Positions 1-41,267 of a stretch of DNA of 64,000 nucleotides are shown here, piece after piece. A program made the position numbers and the translations under genes. The DNA comes from Aurantiochytrium sp. KH105 (lineage: Eukaryota; Sar; Bigyra; Thraustochytrida; Thraustochytriidae): assembly GCA_003116975.1 (NCBI GenBank), contig BGKB01000004.1, positions 1 through 64,000 on the forward strand. The letters run 5' to 3'. Below the pieces are notes generated by a model. It had not been told where the DNA came from, did no database searches, and saw only the letters and a list, made by a program, of their open reading frames with translations. Within the stretch, counting starts at the first letter, position 1, and every line of letters starts with the position of its first letter.

Positions 1-177
1 TAAAAAATTTCAAAAAAAAATTCCCGAAGAAGGCCTAGCCCTAAGCTAGTAGCAATTTACCCGAGCTAGTGTTGGGATGGAAAAACCTGGAAATGAGATC
101 TTTGACCAAAGGAAGGACTCTCGACGAATCACAAAAGTCCAAAAGAACAAAAAACATAGTTATGACAACAGGCGAGT

Positions 178-3100
178 CTAGCGTGTGAAATCTTCCTCGG
201 GCTCGGGAGCCCGCTCGAAGATCGCTGGCACTTGCGCGGACAGAGCTCCGCTGGAGCGCCGACTCGAGCGCGTACTGTCCCGACTGGCGCCTCTCGATCG
301 CGAGAGACTGACGCGGCTACTTTGCGAACTCTGGCGCGACGCGGATGAAGCGCGCCGCGTTTGATTGGTGTCGCTCGACCGTCGACTCGCTCGACTCGTG
401 TGGGAGGACCGACGACTCATGGACGAATCACGCCGTGCTTGGTTGGCTTCGCTTGATCGACGACTGGCTCGGGTGCTCCACGAGGTGCGAGCAGAGACGA
501 CCGATTTTCGCCGCGTCTGACTGGCGTCGCTTGATCGACGACTTGCCAGGCTGCTGCGCGGGCTCCGAAGGGAGACGGAGGACCCTCGATGTGCTTGGCG
601 AGCGCTCGCCTCAAACGTCTCAGCATCCTCCTCGTCCTCCTCACCATCATCATCATCATCAAACAGCTGCCCATGGTCGTCGTCGTCGTCTACCTCATCA
701 TCCACATTCTCTTCTTCCTCTTCTTCGTCGTCGTCATCGTCGTTGTGGAGAGTCGCTCTTTCTGGGATTTCCTCGAGTTGATTTTCAGGGCCCCGTCGCG
801 CAGCGGAATTATGCTTTTTGCGCAGCGAGTCGCGTCGCCCGAGCGAGGCGCGCTGAGGTGTCTCGGACGTCTGCGGCTTGAAATCGTAAATGCGCTTGGT
901 ATTGTTCAAAAAGTCATCTTGCGTCATGGACCCGTTTGAAAAGTCGTATCCTGTGGAAACCCAGCGCTCACAAACGTCATTGTACGACCACACGGCAGAG
1001 CGATTCGGAAGAAGGACAACTGGGTCCGCAATGGGTTCGCCTTTCAAGTCAACCCACTCACTCGCATCGCCTCGGGCATCCTCGTCACGCTCCGCTTCCT
1101 CGAGCTTGCCAAGTTGCAAGTACGCAACGACAGCCTCCATTCGGTCTTGGCGCTGCCACTCGGGCCATGTGGCAAGCCAGGCCTCGAATTGCTTCTCCGT
1201 GATGGCCAACGCTTCGCGCTTGGCCGCGGCGATCATGCCGGCGCTAATGGGAACGTGATTCGAGTAAATCATGGCTTGAGAGGAGACCGGGAGGTCGAGG
1301 CTCTCCCGCAGGTCAATCTCGAACCGCAGGTAAACACATACATCGTCAACGCCACGATTCTCCCCGTTGATGAAACGCTCCACGTGCTCGTGCACAATGT
1401 TGAGACGCATGATGCCGCGACCCAGCTTCCGCAGCTTGGCGCGGTCCCCCCTGGCGTGGGCAACGGCGGCAACGAGCTGCATTTGGCCCAGAGCCCAAAT
1501 TGGTTTGTCAGCGCATGCGTCGGTAGCGTCGAGCATGCGCAAAACAATCTCGTCACGCGCGATGGGATCTCGCGCAATGGTCTCGAGTACCTCTTGAACG
1601 CGTGACTTGAGGTCTTCGCGCAGTTTTTCTTCTCGAAACTCTTGCGAAGACAAGAGCATTGAGAGAAAGTGCAAGACTCCTCGAAGGTAGGCCGGATCGA
1701 TGTACGGTTCGAGATCAACGACCTGGACATTGAACTCGCGTGCGACATCAAAGAGCGTGCTTAATTGAACGTCGCCTCCTCGTGGGCCGACCGTGGCGCC
1801 CAGCTCTTGCAGCAGTTGAGCGTCGTTGCCGAGATACACCATTACGTTAGAATCCGACCCAATCGCGCGTAGAGCCTGCAACTCGTCACCCACGAGGCTT
1901 GTGTTCGCGATGTTTAGCACGAGACGCTCCGACCGTGGGGTCTGAAAAGGCTCCAACGGAAGGGAAAAGATATTCACGCAATTTGTCAAATCCATGAGGT
2001 TCCCATGAAGTACGAGCGAAGAGGGCACATACGAGAGCGAGTCGCAGCCGCTCGCAATCAGGTCGCCCTTGACGGTGAGACCTTCCGGCAAGGCCTGCAG
2101 CGCGGCGCAGCCGCGCAAAATCAAATTGCCTTCCACCACAAGATTGTCCGGGAGCTTGATGAGACTCGTGCACGAGGTGAGGTTCATATTCCCTCTCACG
2201 CGACGGAGCGAGTCGGGAATGGTCAAGAGCATGCTGCAGGAATGCAGGTTGAGGGGCCCGGTTTCCGTCCAAAGAGGCAAAATTGTTAGCGCCGAGCAGT
2301 CCCGCAAGTGCACTTCTCCGGATACCTCTAGATCTGGCGGGAGTTCCAAGACGATGCCTTGAGAGTCCAGGATGCAAAGTCTTTCCACTGACACATTGGT
2401 GCCCCAGCCTGCCACACCAATGTTATTGAGCATGAGGCAATTTTGCACGCGAAGGTCATTGGGAATGATGACATGAGCGGGTCCATCGTCACGGTTCTCA
2501 TGCGAGGGCATGATGGCCATGTCACCTTCTACGATTGTGCCGCTTTGCAACTGTCCTGCCTCGCTTGCGATGGGGACGGCAACGAGCAGGTCCCCACGGA
2601 CCACGCGCAAGCGGGGAAAATCTTTGCAGAGATTGAGGCGGAGAGGTGTATTGGGTGCTGCGCGTACCTCAAGCGTGGCCTGGTCCTTGCGCCAGGCCAT
2701 CCACTCGACGGGGCCGCTCGACAGGGCGGCGGCAGTCTCGGGGCTGTTCATGCCGCGCAGTGCTTGCGCCATGGTCCGCTGCCGCATGGCGCGGAGACAT
2801 TGCGTGCGAAAGGGCATGTGGCGCAAGCACCATTGTCCAGCCTTGGAGCAGCGCGATGCCATTCTCGAGGGGCGCAGGCTGTCCACGGCACCTCGCACTT
2901 GGCCTGCGCAAAAGCCTGCGCAGCCGCTGCAGCACTCGACCATGTCCGACCGGCAGAGCGAGAGGGAGCAATGCCGCCAGTTCTGCATCACAGAAAGGCA
3001 CTCCTCAAAGCCCGCACTGCACGAGGGAAGACACGGCTTGAAGGGCTTTGCGGCCACGATGCAAAAGGGCGCCAAAATGGCGAGCGGGATCAAGGTGACG

Positions 3101-3570
3101 CCCGAGATAAAAGCGGGGACACAGTGCAAACATTTCCCTGCGTAGCCGTCAATCTCGCACGTGTGCTCGTCGGGGTCGCTGCAGGGCCGACGCAGCGAAA
3201 GCTCGCAATCGTCCACTCCCGACGACTCCACGTACTCGCACATACAGCATATTGTAATGGGAAAACACTCCAGAGCGACCTGCATGATCATGCACATGGA
3301 GCAGCAGCCCGTGCAATAGTAATCCATGCCTTCTTCGTCGTAGAATTCTTCTCCATTGATGAGGCCACGGCACACGCAGACGCCGCCCAAGAGGAATTCG
3401 GAGTCGTCCGTTTCCAGGTCCGAGCAAGGTAGGCATTCGATGTTCTCTATCGTCTTTTCCAGGCACGCATGCTCCTCAATGCCACGGCCGTGCGACCGCT
3501 CCTCGGCGTTTACTGCCGTGAGCAGGCTGCTGTTCACCAGACCGCCCACGTCGCCGCTGCTCCACGTCAT
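178..3570 (-). CDS. LRR-NEL type E3 ubiquitin ligase (bacterial IpaH/SspH-like) with Cys-rich N-terminus and RS-rich tail
   Basis: The product is 1130 aa, read from the first in-frame ATG (3570); the open frame continues upstream without another ATG. In order it has: a Cys-rich region (about 35-240) containing a hydrophobic stretch (about 152-177); degenerate LRRs of the LPxxLxVxGNLxLxxC kind (about 377-543); a helical NEL-like domain (about 570-830); a U-box-like stretch (about 839-895); a poly-Asp/Glu region; and an RRSS-repeat tail (about 1003-1130). The NEL call rests on DATDACADKPIW, with Cys686 in the CxD motif of this family, followed by LGRGIMRL, VDDVCVYLRF and FEAWLATWPEW, which line up in order with IpaH9.8/SspH motifs. 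NEL enzymes form a thioester on this Cys and transfer ubiquitin to a substrate held by the LRRs. The family is known from bacterial secreted effectors, so occurrence here suggests ancient transfer. Ligase activity and location are inferred. Confidence 0.8.
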   Translation of the reverse strand: MTWSSGDVGGLVNSSLLTAVNAEERSHGRGIEEHACLEKTIENIECLPCSDLETDDSEFLLGGVCVCRGLINGEEFYDEEGMDYYCTGCCSMCMIMQVALECFPITICCMCEYVESSGVDDCELSLRRPCSDPDEHTCEIDGYAGKCLHCVPAFISGVTLIPLAILAPFCIVAAKPFKPCLPSCSAGFEECLSVMQNWRHCSLSLCRSDMVECCSGCAGFCAGQVRGAVDSLRPSRMASRCSKAGQWCLRHMPFRTQCLRAMRQRTMAQALRGMNSPETAAALSSGPVEWMAWRKDQATLEVRAAPNTPLRLNLCKDFPRLRVVRGDLLVAVPIASEAGQLQSGTIVEGDMAIMPSHENRDDGPAHVIIPNDLRVQNCLMLNNIGVAGWGTNVSVERLCILDSQGIVLELPPDLEVSGEVHLRDCSALTILPLWTETGPLNLHSCSMLLTIPDSLRRVRGNMNLTSCTSLIKLPDNLVVEGNLILRGCAALQALPEGLTVKGDLIASGCDSLSYVPSSLVLHGNLMDLTNCVNIFSLPLEPFQTPRSERLVLNIANTSLVGDELQALRAIGSDSNVMVYLGNDAQLLQELGATVGPRGGDVQLSTLFDVAREFNVQVVDLEPYIDPAYLRGVLHFLSMLLSSQEFREEKLREDLKSRVQEVLETIARDPIARDEIVLRMLDATDACADKPIWALGQMQLVAAVAHARGDRAKLRKLGRGIMRLNIVHEHVERFINGENRGVDDVCVYLRFEIDLRESLDLPVSSQAMIYSNHVPISAGMIAAAKREALAITEKQFEAWLATWPEWQRQDRMEAVVAYLQLGKLEEAERDEDARGDASEWVDLKGEPIADPVVLLPNRSAVWSYNDVCERWVSTGYDFSNGSMTQDDFLNNTKRIYDFKPQTSETPQRASLGRRDSLRKKHNSAARRGPENQLEEIPERATLHNDDDDDEEEEEENVDDEVDDDDDHGQLFDDDDDGEEDEEDAETFEASARQAHRGSSVSLRSPRSSLASRRSSDASQTRRKSVVSARTSWSTRASRRSSEANQARRDSSMSRRSSHTSRASRRSSDTNQTRRASSASRQSSQSSRVSLSRSRGASRDSTRSSRRSSGALSAQVPAIFERAPEPEEDFTR

Positions 3571-9374: not shown

Positions 9375-10397
9375 CTAGGGTCGACCATCTGAAATTGTTA
9401 GGACAGCTTCGAGCTGCTTTTCGAGTTCATCAACGTCGTATTCTTCTTCAAAAAGGTCATCATCATCACCACTATCATCGCTGTCAGTTTCAACACCATC
9501 TTCAATCGAGGATTCACTACGAAACTCCTCTATGACACGATCACGTGAGACGATAATCCGCTTCACCAAGTCTCGACCAGAGGGTTGCTCGAGTTTGATG
9601 AACTCGGCATCGAGTCTCTGCTTCACATCTTGGAGAGTGGTGTCCTTCGTGTATTGCCTTGCAATATTTCCTTTCACGTAAGCCCAAATCAGTTCGATGG
9701 GCTGCAGATCCGAGTAGTGAGGTGGTGTGAAGAGGACGCGATGCCCTGCCCTCTGTGCTGCCTCGATCACTTCCGGCAGCACCTTCTCCTTGATCCAGTT
9801 CTTCAGCAGAACTTTCAGCTGCGCAACTGTGCTCGTTGCGTCGTGCGGTATCTGATATTGATAGAGCGCTGCAATAACCTCCCGTTTCTTTAGCTTCGCG
9901 ACGTCGGGTGCGGTTGGCGGCAGCGTCTTGTGGTAGCTCGCATTGTCCATTATGATCAGGGACGGCTCATGAAGGTTAGGTAGGAGCTGCGTCCGCCACC
10001 ACAATGCAAAATTAGTCCCGTTGAAGTTCTTGTGGTAGTCTCCTTTGCTCGCGTCAGCTGCTTGCGGACAAAACGTCCAAACAGAGCCTGGCACGAGGCC
10101 AGCTTCACGATCTGGGTATTTTGGACTCGAATTCTGAATGGCAGCCAAAATACAATACCTACGTCCCTTGTGTTGAACGCGCGTCGTTGTGTCTTCCGCG
10201 TCCATTGGATCAAATAGACTTTTGTCAAACCTATGGTAGTGTTGATGCACGTATGACTCATCAAGATAGACCTCCCTTAGCTGCAACTCAGGCGGAAGGG
10301 ATCGATTCTGTAAGAGTCTGACGATGTAATCGTCGCGCAGAGCAATATGTTCGANGCTTCGTCGCGATCTGCACGCCGTCGACTTTTTCCAGTTCAT
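9375..10397 (-). CDS. N-terminally incomplete DDE transposase (IS630/Tc1-mariner superfamily)
   Basis: The open frame is 340 aa and holds a DDE_3-type catalytic core: first Asp in VYLDESYVHQHY, second in LIIMDNASYH, and Glu in HYSDLQPIELIWAYVKGNI. All three catalytic positions are intact. It ends with an acidic tail. The helix-turn-helix region that normally precedes this core is absent, and the element boundary is close upstream. One undetermined base (n at 10355) falls in the N-terminal part and makes one residue unreadable. The product could be catalytically competent but unable to bind its ends by itself. The frame lies entirely within the TIRs. Confidence 0.8.
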   Translation of the reverse strand: MNWKKSTACRSRRSXEHIALRDDYIVRLLQNRSLPPELQLREVYLDESYVHQHYHRFDKSLFDPMDAEDTTTRVQHKGRRYCILAAIQNSSPKYPDREAGLVPGSVWTFCPQAADASKGDYHKNFNGTNFALWWRTQLLPNLHEPSLIIMDNASYHKTLPPTAPDVAKLKKREVIAALYQYQIPHDATSTVAQLKVLLKNWIKEKVLPEVIEAAQRAGHRVLFTPPHYSDLQPIELIWAYVKGNIARQYTKDTTLQDVKQRLDAEFIKLEQPSGRDLVKRIIVSRDRVIEEFRSESSIEDGVETDSDDSGDDDDLFEEEYDVDELEKQLEAVLTISDGRP

Positions 10398-37243: not shown

Positions 37244-38042
37244 CCGCGAGACCTCTGTGGCCGCCGCGATCTTTCCCAGTTTGCTTGCTTCATTATTAGC
37301 AGCGGCAATGAGCAGCAGCACGTGCGCGTGTGTCTGGGACGCGACAATCGCCCGGCACGGCGGCATTCGCGCGGCCATGGCTGCCGCATCGCGACGACAT
37401 CGCGATCGCATTGCACCGGCTGGGGCGAGACCGCCTTGGACGGGATCGCATCCGCCGCAACGGAGGGAGAGCGTCGACACGCCAGCTGCAGCTGCAGCAG
37501 CAGCATCTTGCGTGCGTGGGACGCGGCGCGAGATCTTCGCCTCCGTCAATGAACCGCGCCGGAACAAGTTGTCGCGCCCTGGCCTCCTTCCTTTTCGGAG
37601 GGAAGCGGAAGCGCGATGGCGAGCGTGGAGCCGCAGCCGCTGAACGAGCTGCGAGGGACCGCGAAGGGAGGGGGCGGCCTCGGGAAGCTTCCCGGCTCTG
37701 CAGCTGCAGCTGCTTGCTTGCATTGCATTGCATTGCATTGCATTGCATTGCATTGCATTGCATTGCATTGCATTGCTTTGCCTTGCCTGCAGGCTGGTCG
37801 CGGAGCTCGGGATAGCGTCCTCTACGAGCTGTGAGGCGGTGAAGATGAGACCGCCTCGGCCTCGCACAGTCGCCGTCGGCGCAGACTGCGAGCGTGCGAG
37901 GGAGGCCAGACCCGCAACAGCTGAGGCGTCCACGTCGCAGCAGAGCAACTCGTAGAGACACCTCGTAGCGAAGACGCGCAGCAGCGTGTCGATAGAGACG
38001 CGACGAAAGCGAATAAGCAAGCGAGCGAGCGAGCAAGCAAGC
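37244..38042. other. intergenic region with (CATTG)n array
   Basis: 5' flank of the first oxidoreductase gene. Apart from the CATTG pentanucleotide array at 37,721-37,775 it holds no recognisable feature. Long open frames on the minus strand overlap the array and the next gene and are shadows. Confidence 0.5.
37721..37775. repeat. (CATTG)11 microsatellite
   Basis: Eleven perfect CATTG units, then a diverged CTTTG. It lies about 270 bp upstream of the oxidoreductase start. Confidence 0.95.
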
Positions 38043-39248
38043 ATGGCCACCAAGAAAGAGGATGCGCTCCAGGCGGCGCACGCGCTCGCGAAAAAGGTCG
38101 GCGGAGACACCTACACCAAGGAGAACCCCATGCGCCTCGGCGTCATCAGTACGGCCAACATTGCCCGCAAGGTCATCAGCGGCGTCCAGGCCCTCGACAC
38201 CGTCAAGGTCACCGTCGTCTCCTCGCGCAACCTTGAAAAGGCGCAACAATTTGCCAAGGATGTTGGCGTCGACAAGGCCTACGGCAGCTACGAGGAAGTG
38301 CTCGCCGATCCTGAAATCGATGCCGTGTACGTGCCGCTGCCCACCTCGACGCACGCCGAGTGGGTCGGCAAGGCTGCCAAGGCTGGCAAGCATGTGCTTT
38401 GTGAAAAGCCATGCGCGCTCGACAGCAAGCAGCTCTTTGCCATGTTGCTTGAATGCAAAGAGAACAACGTGCACTTCATGGACAACGTCATGTTCATGCA
38501 CCACGACCGTCTGCGCATGATGCGCGAACGCATCGACGACGGCTTCCTCGGCAAGCACGGCGCCACCCACGTCTCTTCCATCTTTTCTTTTCGCTCGAGC
38601 GAGGAATTCGTCACCTCGAACATTCGCATGAATCCCGATCTCGACGCCTTGGGCGCACTGGGCGACCTCGGCTGGTACAATGTCCGCATGGCGCTCTTCG
38701 CCTTTGGCTGGCGCAAGCCCTCCACGGCCCAAGGCCGCATCCTCATCTCGCACAACAAGGTCCCCATCGAGTTCTCAGGTGTGCTCACCTGGGATCCCGA
38801 GGACGGCGAGGAAGACGTTGCCGGCATCAAGCTGCAGCGCTCGACGACGCTTTACTGCTCCTTTTTGCACGGTAAGCAGCAGCATGTCCAGATTACCGGC
38901 TCGGACGGCATGATCGCTCTCGATGATTTCGTCAACACCCGCTCAACAAAGTCTGCTGTCTTCCTCGAGGAGTCCGATCACCAAACGACCATGACGGAGG
39001 ACGGACCCGAGACGGAGAGCAAGCGTAACCTCGTCAAGACTGGTCCCTGGCGCCAGGAAGCCGAGACTGTTGCAAACTTTGCGCGCCAGGTCGCTGCCTG
39101 CAAGCAGGGTCAAAACATTGATTTTTGGCCGCGCATTGCCCTCCTCACGCAGGTCTGCTGTGACGCTCTGCTCGACTCTGCGGCCAAGGATGGCGTCGTC
39201 GTCGATGTCGACCCTCTTGGCCTTCTCGAGCGCGATGAACTCAAGTGA
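38043..39248 (+). CDS. Gfo/Idh/MocA-family NAD(P)-dependent oxidoreductase, copy 1
   Basis: 401 aa. N-terminal Rossmann domain: MRLGVISTANIARKVISGVQ, VVSSRNLEKAQQFAKD, then YEEVLADPEIDAVYVPLPTS and the family's conserved EKP in GKHVLCEKPCAL, whose Lys contacts cofactor and substrate. The C-terminal alpha/beta domain includes FMDNVMFMHHDRL, LGDLGWYNVRMALF and a beta-sheet core. This matches dihydrodiol dehydrogenase or sugar-dehydrogenase-type members that reduce or oxidise carbohydrate substrates with NAD(P)H; the substrate is unknown. It forms a tandem pair with the gene at 40,050. Its first 300 nt are almost identical to that copy while the rest has diverged, which indicates gene conversion. 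No targeting signal is seen, so it is probably cytosolic. Confidence 0.88.
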   Translation: MATKKEDALQAAHALAKKVGGDTYTKENPMRLGVISTANIARKVISGVQALDTVKVTVVSSRNLEKAQQFAKDVGVDKAYGSYEEVLADPEIDAVYVPLPTSTHAEWVGKAAKAGKHVLCEKPCALDSKQLFAMLLECKENNVHFMDNVMFMHHDRLRMMRERIDDGFLGKHGATHVSSIFSFRSSEEFVTSNIRMNPDLDALGALGDLGWYNVRMALFAFGWRKPSTAQGRILISHNKVPIEFSGVLTWDPEDGEEDVAGIKLQRSTTLYCSFLHGKQQHVQITGSDGMIALDDFVNTRSTKSAVFLEESDHQTTMTEDGPETESKRNLVKTGPWRQEAETVANFARQVAACKQGQNIDFWPRIALLTQVCCDALLDSAAKDGVVVDVDPLGLLERDELK

Positions 39249-40049
39249 GCGAGTGACGGAAGGTGCAAGCATGCGAACGTGTGATTGACAGAAAATAGAT
39301 AAGGTTTCCCACAATTTTTTTCCCCTTGTAACAGAGTGGAGCACGAGATCGATACCTCGCTCACGTTGCGGGCAGAGCCGAGAACAAGCCAGAACGTAGT
39401 GTTTCTTTAGCCTCAAATGGTTTCTTTTGTCGCATTTCGTGCCCCGACAAAGACAAAGGAAATCTTCGACCGAACTTCTTCGTCATTCGAACAAGCCAGA
39501 ACGTAGTGTTTCTTTAGCCTCAAGTGGTTTCTTTTGTCGCATTTCGTGCCCCGACAAAGACAAAGGAAACCTTCGACCGAACTTCTTCGTCATTCTTTTC
39601 TGCACAGTTTTCTGCCCTTCACGAATGCCCTGCGAATGTTACAATGTCCCTGCGAAGCCTTGCGCTTGTTGGCGTGCCCTTCTTATTACGAACACCGTGT
39701 GGCACATCCCCTCTCCCCCTCCATCTGTTCCCTCTTCAGGCTCTTGCGATGCGTTCCCTCTTCAGGCTCTTGCGAAGATGAGAAGATGACGGAAGATGGT
39801 AAAAAGGCGAGCGCTGGCAGTGGCGCGTCGGCGGGGCCTCCTTCCGCTTCCCAAGCCAAAGTCAGCACAGGATCGAACGCCGCTCGCGTTGACAGTCGAG
39901 CTTCATAAAACCTCAACGAAAAGGTCTATCGAGGACAGGACGACGAGTCGAGCCTTGCTTTCGTGCACGCGCGCGTACGACGACTGCGCCGGCGCTCGTC
40001 CTTGCCCTCGCCGGACACGTCTAGGTTGACCGCAGAGGAGAAAGCAAGC
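39249..40049. other. spacer between tandem oxidoreductase genes, with 107-bp direct duplication
   Basis: Contains the 3' flank of copy 1, a 107-bp tandem duplication (39,382-39,595), a shorter doubled unit (CCCTCTTCAGGCTCTTGCGA, near 39,730-39,775), and the promoter of copy 2. No gene is supported. Confidence 0.6.
39382..39595. repeat. two tandem copies of a 107-bp unit
   Basis: Units 39,382-39,488 and 39,489-39,595 begin GAACAAGCCAGAACGTAGTG and differ at only two positions that I can see. The near identity indicates a recent duplication. Confidence 0.92.
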
Positions 40050-41267
40050 ATGGCCGCCAAGAAAGAGGATGCGCTCCAGGCGGCGCACGCGCTCGCGAAA
40101 AAGGTCGGCGGAGACACCTACCACAAGGAGAACCCCATGCGCCTCGGCGTCATCAGTACGGCCAACATTGCCCGCAAGGTCATCAGCGGCGTCCAGGCCC
40201 TCGACACCGTCAAGGTCACCGTCGTCTCCTCGCGCAACCTTGAAAAGGCGCAACAGTTTGCCAAGGATGTTGGCGTCGACAAGGCCTACGGCAGCTACGA
40301 GGAAGTGCTCGCCGATCCTGAAATCGATGCCGTGTACGTGCCGCTGCCCACGTCGATGCACACCGAGTGGGTCTGCAAGGCTGCCAAGGCCGGCAAGCAC
40401 GTGCTCTGCGAAAAGCCTTGTGCTTTGAGCGGTGCACAACTCTTGGAGATGTTGCTCGTGTGCAAGGAAAACAAGGTACATTTCATGGACAATGTCATGT
40501 TCATGCACCACGACCGTCTGCGCATGATGCGCGAACGCATCGACGAAGGCTTTCTCGGCAAGCATGGCGCGACCAACGTCTTTTCGACCCTCACCTTTCG
40601 CTCGAGCGGCGACTTTGGCGAAGACTTTTATAGCTCCAACATTCGAACCAACCCGGACCTCGACGCGCTCGGTGCTGTTGGCGATCTTGGATGGTACAAC
40701 ATGCGCATGGCGCTCTTTGCGTTTGCCTGGCGTACACCGGCCACCGCACAAGGCCGTATGCTCATTTCGCACAACAAGGTCCCCATTGAAATTTCAGGTG
40801 TGCTCACCTGGGATCCCGAGGAGGGAGAGGAAGACGTTGCTGGCATTACGCTGCAACGCTCCACCGTCTTCCACGGCTCCTTTCTGCACAGCAACCAGCA
40901 ACGCGTTCAAATTACTGGCGCCGACGGCATGATCGCGCTCGACGACTTTGTCAACGCAAACTCTGCAAAGTCTGCGTCCTTTTTCGAGGAGTCCAAGCAT
41001 GAAACCATCATGACCGAGGATGGTCCCGAGGCCAAGAGTGAGCGCAACGTCGTAGAGACAGGTTATTGCCGCCAAGAGGCGGAGGCTGTCGCCAACTTTG
41101 CTTGCCAGATTGCCGCCCTCAAGCAGGGCCAGTCCATCGATTTCTGGCCGCGCATCGCGCTCCTCACTCAGCTGTGCTGCGATGCTTTGCTCGAATCCGC
41201 CGAAAAGAACGGGGCCACCGTAAAGATCGATCCTGAGGGTCTTCTTGCTCGCTTCGATGCGGCATAG
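40050..41267 (+). CDS. Gfo/Idh/MocA-family NAD(P)-dependent oxidoreductase, copy 2
   Basis: 405 aa. Same domains as copy 1: Rossmann fold with MRLGVISTANIARKVISGVQ, the EKP motif in GKHVLCEKPCAL, then FMDNVMFMHHDRLRMM and VGDLGWYNMRMALF. A four-residue insertion (GEDFY, near SSGDFGEDFYSSN) distinguishes it from copy 1. The C-terminal half differs at many synonymous and some non-synonymous sites, whereas the first 300 nt carry only about four substitutions relative to copy 1. Both copies keep the catalytic positions, so both are probably active, perhaps with different substrate preference or expression. The in-frame sequence upstream of the ATG begins with a non-ATG codon and is not conserved in copy 1. 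Confidence 0.88.
   Translation: MAAKKEDALQAAHALAKKVGGDTYHKENPMRLGVISTANIARKVISGVQALDTVKVTVVSSRNLEKAQQFAKDVGVDKAYGSYEEVLADPEIDAVYVPLPTSMHTEWVCKAAKAGKHVLCEKPCALSGAQLLEMLLVCKENKVHFMDNVMFMHHDRLRMMRERIDEGFLGKHGATNVFSTLTFRSSGDFGEDFYSSNIRTNPDLDALGAVGDLGWYNMRMALFAFAWRTPATAQGRMLISHNKVPIEISGVLTWDPEEGEEDVAGITLQRSTVFHGSFLHSNQQRVQITGADGMIALDDFVNANSAKSASFFEESKHETIMTEDGPEAKSERNVVETGYCRQEAEAVANFACQIAALKQGQSIDFWPRIALLTQLCCDALLESAEKNGATVKIDPEGLLARFDAA

Follow-up and report, generated by a model that had tools for sequence, protein, structure and literature searches.

Near the start of a 64,000-nucleotide stretch of the Aurantiochytrium sp. KH105 genome (contig BGKB01000004.1, positions 1 to 64,000; the whole stretch is called the window in what follows) lies a gene whose protein contains a NEL domain, the catalytic domain of the bacterial E3 ubiquitin ligases IpaH, SspH1, SspH2 and SlrP. 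This gene is one of a family of eukaryotic NEL proteins which is real and under constraint. The parts of the gene and of its product are collected in Table 1. The gene model is backed by comparison with the second copy of the gene, carried by contig C55, since the three insertions or deletions found inside the frame are all three bases long, whereas 13 of the 17 that are found upstream are not multiples of three (one of the 13 being an end effect of the compared stretch), and since identity is 97.5% in the frame, as against 90.1% on its 5′ side and 92.3% on its 3′ side.

Table 1. The NEL-domain gene of the window and the features of the protein that it encodes.
Feature	Window position (strand)	Residues	Details	Basis
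NEL-domain gene	178..3570 (-)		single exon, 1130 aa, ATG 3570, stop codon 178-180	open reading frame and comparison with C55 copy
Cys-rich N-terminal part	2821..3570 (-)	1-250	30 Cys	residue count
Hydrophobic segments, N-terminal part	3238-3294 and 3055-3111 (-)	93-111 and 154-172		hydropathy
LRR-like (leucine-rich repeat-like) repeats	1951..2343 (-)	motif starts at 448, 470, 491, 512	~21 aa each	motif count
NEL catalytic subdomain	1150..1677 (-)	632-807		Pfam match
CxD motif	1507..1515 (-)		Cys686 at 1513-1515, Asp688 at 1507-1509; in DATDACADK	
Asp742	1345..1347 (-)		lines up with the Asp found 60 residues downstream of the catalytic Cys in bacterial NELs; equated with IpaH9.8 Asp397	
Conserved post-NEL module	856..1077 (-)	~832-905	at place of bacterial thumb, which binds E2-Ub (ubiquitin-conjugating enzyme with ubiquitin); weakly U-box-like	
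Acidic and Arg/Ser-rich low-complexity tail	181..858 (-)		226 aa: 38 R, 47 S, 47 D+E	

The initial annotation, derived from the letters of the sequence, had placed a NEL-type domain within residues 570-830, with Cys686 as the cysteine of its CxD motif. Profile comparison bears this out, down to the exact position of the cysteine: Pfam NEL (PF14496) matches the protein at 98.7 bits (E 4e-28) for a cut-off of 24, a score which rules out a chance motif as the source of the resemblance. The curated models of individual effectors gave 27.8 (IpaH), 41.9 (SlrP) and 20.3 bits (SspH2), below their respective cut-offs of 550, 1113 and 1243. When a profile of 16 family members was compared with the PDB, the sequences found at E ≤0.1, 12 of 12, were NEL chains of IpaH, SlrP, SspH1 or SspH2 (E 8e-22 to 8e-25). 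The correspondence of Asp742 with IpaH9.8 Asp397 rests on this alignment, in which Cys and Asp are separated by 60 residues, the same distance as between positions 337 and 397; we take 337 to be the position of the catalytic cysteine of IpaH9.8. The roles of the catalytic Cys and Asp residues of the IpaH9.8 NEL are described in the accessible part of PMC9320238.

In the whole assembly (76.0 Mb, 367 contigs) the NEL profile found 32 matches on 29 contigs, all above the cut-off, while none of 14 control genomes was matched. We read the 32 matches as 16 loci in two haplotypes: the nine pairs in which both copies were compared have a synonymous divergence (Ks) of 0.05-0.11 and are taken as alleles, the other seven having been joined by near-equal score and frame length only. 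Aligned with one copy per locus (alignment A1, hence 16 of the 32 matches of this genome), the NEL domains share 31-73% of their residues in pairwise comparison (median 46%). The Cys and the Asp of CxD are invariant in all 16, the second catalytic Asp is conserved in 15 and replaced by Glu in one, and CxD is followed by Lys in 15 members and by Met in the remaining one. Selection tells a similar story, in that the ratio of nonsynonymous to synonymous divergence (Ka/Ks) between alleles is 0.00-0.14 over the NEL domain in the nine pairs tested and, in each of them, lower than over the N-terminal part (0.08-0.34), narrowly so in L011/L012 and L022/L027. Scanned with Pfam at the length available, together with the window protein, six of the 16 members displayed a variety of architectures: SPRY and LRR in L011 and L024, SAM in L016 (with a sub-threshold LRR-type match), a weak, sub-threshold match to Arm in L015, and NEL alone in L009 and L022. 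Two members are giants, L016 and L020, with 2496 and 2319 aa within the stretch examined, in open frames that run to 3539 and 3546 aa. Elsewhere, at C31:323992-329179 and C93:135042-140343, two divergent NEL matches are separated by about 4 kb, their order on one contig being the mirror image of that on the other, so that the couple is probably present in both haplotypes.

On either side of its catalytic domain, the window protein has the Cys-rich N-terminus and the RS-rich region that had been annotated. Of the LRRs said to precede the domain, the repeats stand by motif count, with a fifth motif match at residue 148, outside the repeat block, while the Pfam scan of the protein reported no LRR; they are presumed to make the substrate-binding part. 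Three things were absent from that first description: the post-NEL module, the 31 further NEL matches and the two hydrophobic segments, which are possibly a membrane anchor. Such segments also occur in the N-terminal part of L009, the nearest relative of the window protein; at the same threshold none was found in L011, L015, L016, L018, L021, L022, L024 and, partial, L030.

Structure prediction was restricted to residues 600-905, and the models served two ends only, to rank known structures and to give the succession of elements in the tail. In both AlphaFold models the catalytic part is all-helical, at low values of the predicted local distance difference test (pLDDT). Foldseek placed NEL ligases, and nothing else, at ranks 1-9 with the first model and at ranks 1-11 with the second (prob 0.96-1.00, ranks 12-50 falling to 0.23 or less). 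For the NEL fold expected from such a model this gives a ranking, from models that are themselves of low confidence. This ranking agrees with the sequence result but is not independent of it, because bacterial NELs were part of the alignment from which the models were made.

In bacterial NELs the catalytic subdomain is followed by a helical 'thumb' that binds E2-Ub, corresponding to residues 623-697 in SspH1 according to the accessible part of PMC12506513. The match to the bacterial models ends before it (at positions 507-671 of 755 in the SlrP model, and 30-211 of 293 in the IpaH9.8 construct), and its place is taken here by a module of about 65 aa with a conserved G, DPV and HWVxTGxD. Used as a protein query of the genome, one such tail retrieved 28 matches at E ≤1, every one of them directly after a NEL match, and none on C97/C200 and C156/C177, though L024 shows the tail by eye. 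Thirteen of the 16 tails entered the tail alignment A2 (without L017, L021 and L026), and 15 the script alignment (without L017). Neither Pfam, which reported no U-box in the 13 tails at E ≤10, nor a profile comparison with the PDB, which returned no match, recognised the module. Compared by hhalign with six U-boxes of the same genome (the distinct ones among 11 matches, the others being near-equal pairs), its first half aligned over 28 columns, with a score of 24.2 and a probability of 50.2, while its second half was not aligned. This score was reached by none of 60 and none of 200 column shuffles (best 14.4 and 17.8); reversed profiles stayed below 9 and slices of the NEL core went up to 14.7. 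It fell to 17.1 when two of the six U-boxes were omitted, and the three tails of the window subfamily alone gave 19.1, with a probability of 11.5; both results count against the likeness. In the second AlphaFold model, made from an alignment whose bacterial rows end roughly where the tail begins, the tail opens with short strands, after which come two helices joined by a loop (pLDDT 31-51); this we take to be the order of elements in U-boxes. No U-box was among the 50 Foldseek matches listed for that model. The U-box likeness of the module is, in short, a lead, not a finding. On the contig pair of the window gene, U-box matches are located at C4:96388 and C55:99927, some 95-99 kb away from it.

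How such a gene came to be present in this genome may be discussed with the neighbourhood and the phylogeny in hand. A bacterial contaminant, or the contig of an endosymbiont, would account for a domain otherwise known from bacteria, in a gene that lies at the extreme end of both C4 and C55, and yet its chances are next to nil. The same 64 kb hold domain matches to BOP1NT (313.6 bits), PP4R3 (466.5), myotubularin (345.5), UFD1 (68.9) and PIH1 (45.4), all of which we assume to be eukaryotic families; the 32 matches are dispersed over 29 contigs, in paired copies with the allelic divergence given above for the nine pairs tested; some members are fused to SPRY or SAM domains; and bacterial NELs group separately in the tree. 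Neighbouring genes, dispersion, paired copies and tree together rule out a contaminant origin, and the eukaryotic locus that the initial annotation had recognised is confirmed. The phylogeny that it had proposed as a check was built, without a root, from 36 rows: the 16 eukaryotic NELs, which come from the one eukaryote searched, and 20 of 29 bacterial loci (six near-copies and three fragments having been left out). All 16 eukaryotic domains fall on one side of a single branch (support 100/99, present in all 200 bootstrap trees) with a stem of 1.9. Because they make one group on a long stem, the simplest account would be that the catalytic domain was gained once, and that the duplications which followed are old. 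The donor was most likely a bacterium, a direction which is read onto an unrooted tree. A scan of prokaryotes with two conserved peptides, blind to relatives that lack them, gave 85 pattern matches and nine relatives, all Pseudomonas, at 28-31% identity; the NEL profile matched nine of 398 genomes of Pseudomonadota, the phylum to which this sample was confined, G001 (the centre) included. The opposite course, whereby the domain arose in eukaryotes and was taken up by bacteria as an injected effector, would suit an unrooted tree in which both groups are sides of one branch, as well as the diversity of the eukaryotic set (identity 31-73%); we hold it to be improbable, as the end branches of bacteria reach 1.33, against 0.13-0.84 in the eukaryote, which makes the sampled bacterial NELs the more divergent set. 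A viral carrier was rejected on a scan of viral contigs, which by this test hold no relatives (seven pattern matches), and on a search of BFVD, in which nothing matched at E ≤0.001.

As for function, we can understand the family, with good though not full confidence, as some 16 resident eukaryotic E3 ubiquitin ligases of the Cys type, built on a NEL domain that would have been gained once and then expanded. It is because the catalytic residues are conserved and under purifying selection that active ligases may be inferred, and the members are very likely to be Cys-type ubiquitin ligases using the bacterial chemistry. Several observations weigh against this proposal. Short bacterial NELs carry Arg after CxD, where Lys or Met is found here; profile comparison did not recognise the bacterial thumb in the tail, a test in which the thumbs of long and short bacterial NELs did not match each other either, while the catalytic core of the family matched bacterial cores at probability 99.8. 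The post-NEL Ka/Ks, drawn from few changes, is scattered between 0 and 2.05 (the latter in L029/L031) and exceeds 0.5 in four of nine pairs, high values coming partly from low-complexity ends. Finally, the two AlphaFold models are of poor quality, with a mean pLDDT of 54.8 and of 60.0, and query TM-scores to NEL chains are 0.30-0.53, with large root-mean-square deviations. A bacterial thumb that is not recognised and the replaced Arg would be natural in proteins that had kept the NEL fold while ceasing to be ligases, to become binding scaffolds or pseudo-enzymes. We find this unlikely, in view of a CxD motif kept by 16 of 16 members and a second Asp by 15 of 16 despite NEL identities down to 31%, and of a Ka/Ks which, in nine of nine allele pairs, two of them narrowly, is lower over NEL than over the N-terminal part. 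It is far less likely still that the proteins are secreted and act on other cells in the manner of bacterial effectors, even though their relatives of known function are injected ones: the hydrophobic segments of the window protein start at residue 93, away from the N-terminus, seven of the eight other members scanned have no such segment at the threshold used, and members are fused to SPRY and SAM domains, which are usually intracellular.

Taking the family as resident ligases, its history and its mode of action might be pictured as follows. The lineage would have acquired the NEL domain a single time, most probably from a bacterium, and copies of it would then have been fused to different recognition parts, LRR-like, SPRY with LRR, SAM-containing and possibly ARM. 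In the window protein the N-terminal part would determine where the enzyme sits, perhaps at a membrane, and substrate binding would fall to the LRRs; a charged E2 would pass its ubiquitin to Cys686 as a thioester, with the help of Asp688 and Asp742, and the ubiquitin would then be moved from Cys686 to a lysine of the substrate. The docking of E2~Ub, which is the job of the thumb in bacterial NELs, would be taken over by the post-NEL module, possibly a new E2-docking module. One may go further and imagine a hybrid class of E3, in which a NEL thioester domain had its thumb replaced by an E2-docking module derived from a U-box and then multiplied into 16 genes, with recognition domains that can be swapped, to belong permanently to the ubiquitin system of a eukaryote; we offer this as a tentative picture, with the odds rather against it.

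Other features of the genome may be mentioned in passing. The window contains a gene for an rRNA adenine dimethylase (228.1 bits), a tandem pair of similar dehydrogenase genes of the Gfo/Idh/MocA type (37986-39248 and 39963-41267, plus strand) and, at 9375-10397 on the minus strand, a frame resembling DDE_3 transposases (41.4 bits, over 9375-10316) with one unread base inside, likely to be a mobile element or its remnant. Pieces resembling PfaA of polyunsaturated fatty acid synthases are present on C72/C155 and C290/C61, at 930 bits for a model cut-off of 1010; 11 of the 14 control genomes were also matched in this search. They are a hint of a labyrinthulomycete and make a thraustochytrid plausible. 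A labyrinthulomycete primer and a general SSU pattern, both without a match, carry no information on this point.

If true, our proposal would mean that, beyond the world of bacterial effectors, a cell turns the NEL catalytic mechanism on proteins of its own, and that an enzyme described as a weapon injected by bacteria may have become part of the regulation of the cell itself. It raises the questions of which E2s are used, of whether a new docking module stands in for the thumb, and of how so potent an effector enzyme was tamed.

In the accessible parts of PMC12506513 and PMC9320238, NEL ligases are treated as bacterial effectors without a structural counterpart among eukaryotic E3s. Our literature search, thin on subscription journals and made without eukaryotic protein databases, brought up, among the papers listed, no description of a NEL ligase from a eukaryote besides a claim in green algae; the initial annotation likewise knew of none. 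That claim is of NLR (nucleotide-binding leucine-rich-repeat) proteins said to carry a NEL-like part (PMC7145615); it resembles ours in placing a NEL-type part in a eukaryote, and relies, in the accessible part of this source, on a superfamily of LRR type to which homology with NEL is ascribed, no catalytic motif being given there. HECT and RBR E3s have in common with the family the proposed Cys-thioester chemistry (accessible parts of PMC9320238 for HECT and PMC12506513 for RBR), but the domain of the window protein is NEL, and the Pfam scan found no HECT or RBR domain in it. With U-box E3s the likeness is confined to the first half of the tail module (hhalign probability 50%), as against a second half left unaligned and 13 tails without a Pfam U-box. 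The large Pseudomonas NEL proteins (L034-L042, mostly of about 1700 aa), at 28-31% identity and with Cys-x-Asp kept, differ in being bacterial, in a separate branch, in a different thumb and in having CADAG rather than CxDK. IpaH, SspH1, SspH2 and SlrP, effectors of type III secretion systems, share with the family the catalytic subdomain over about 180 positions, the CxD motif and the second Asp, and with the window protein the LRR-like repeats before NEL. These effectors are encoded by bacterial genes, which the window gene, judging by its neighbours and paired copies, is not: here we have a eukaryotic chromosomal family, with CxDK instead of CxDR, another module at the site of the thumb, other N-terminal domains in the relatives and, in the window protein, a long acidic and RS-rich tail.

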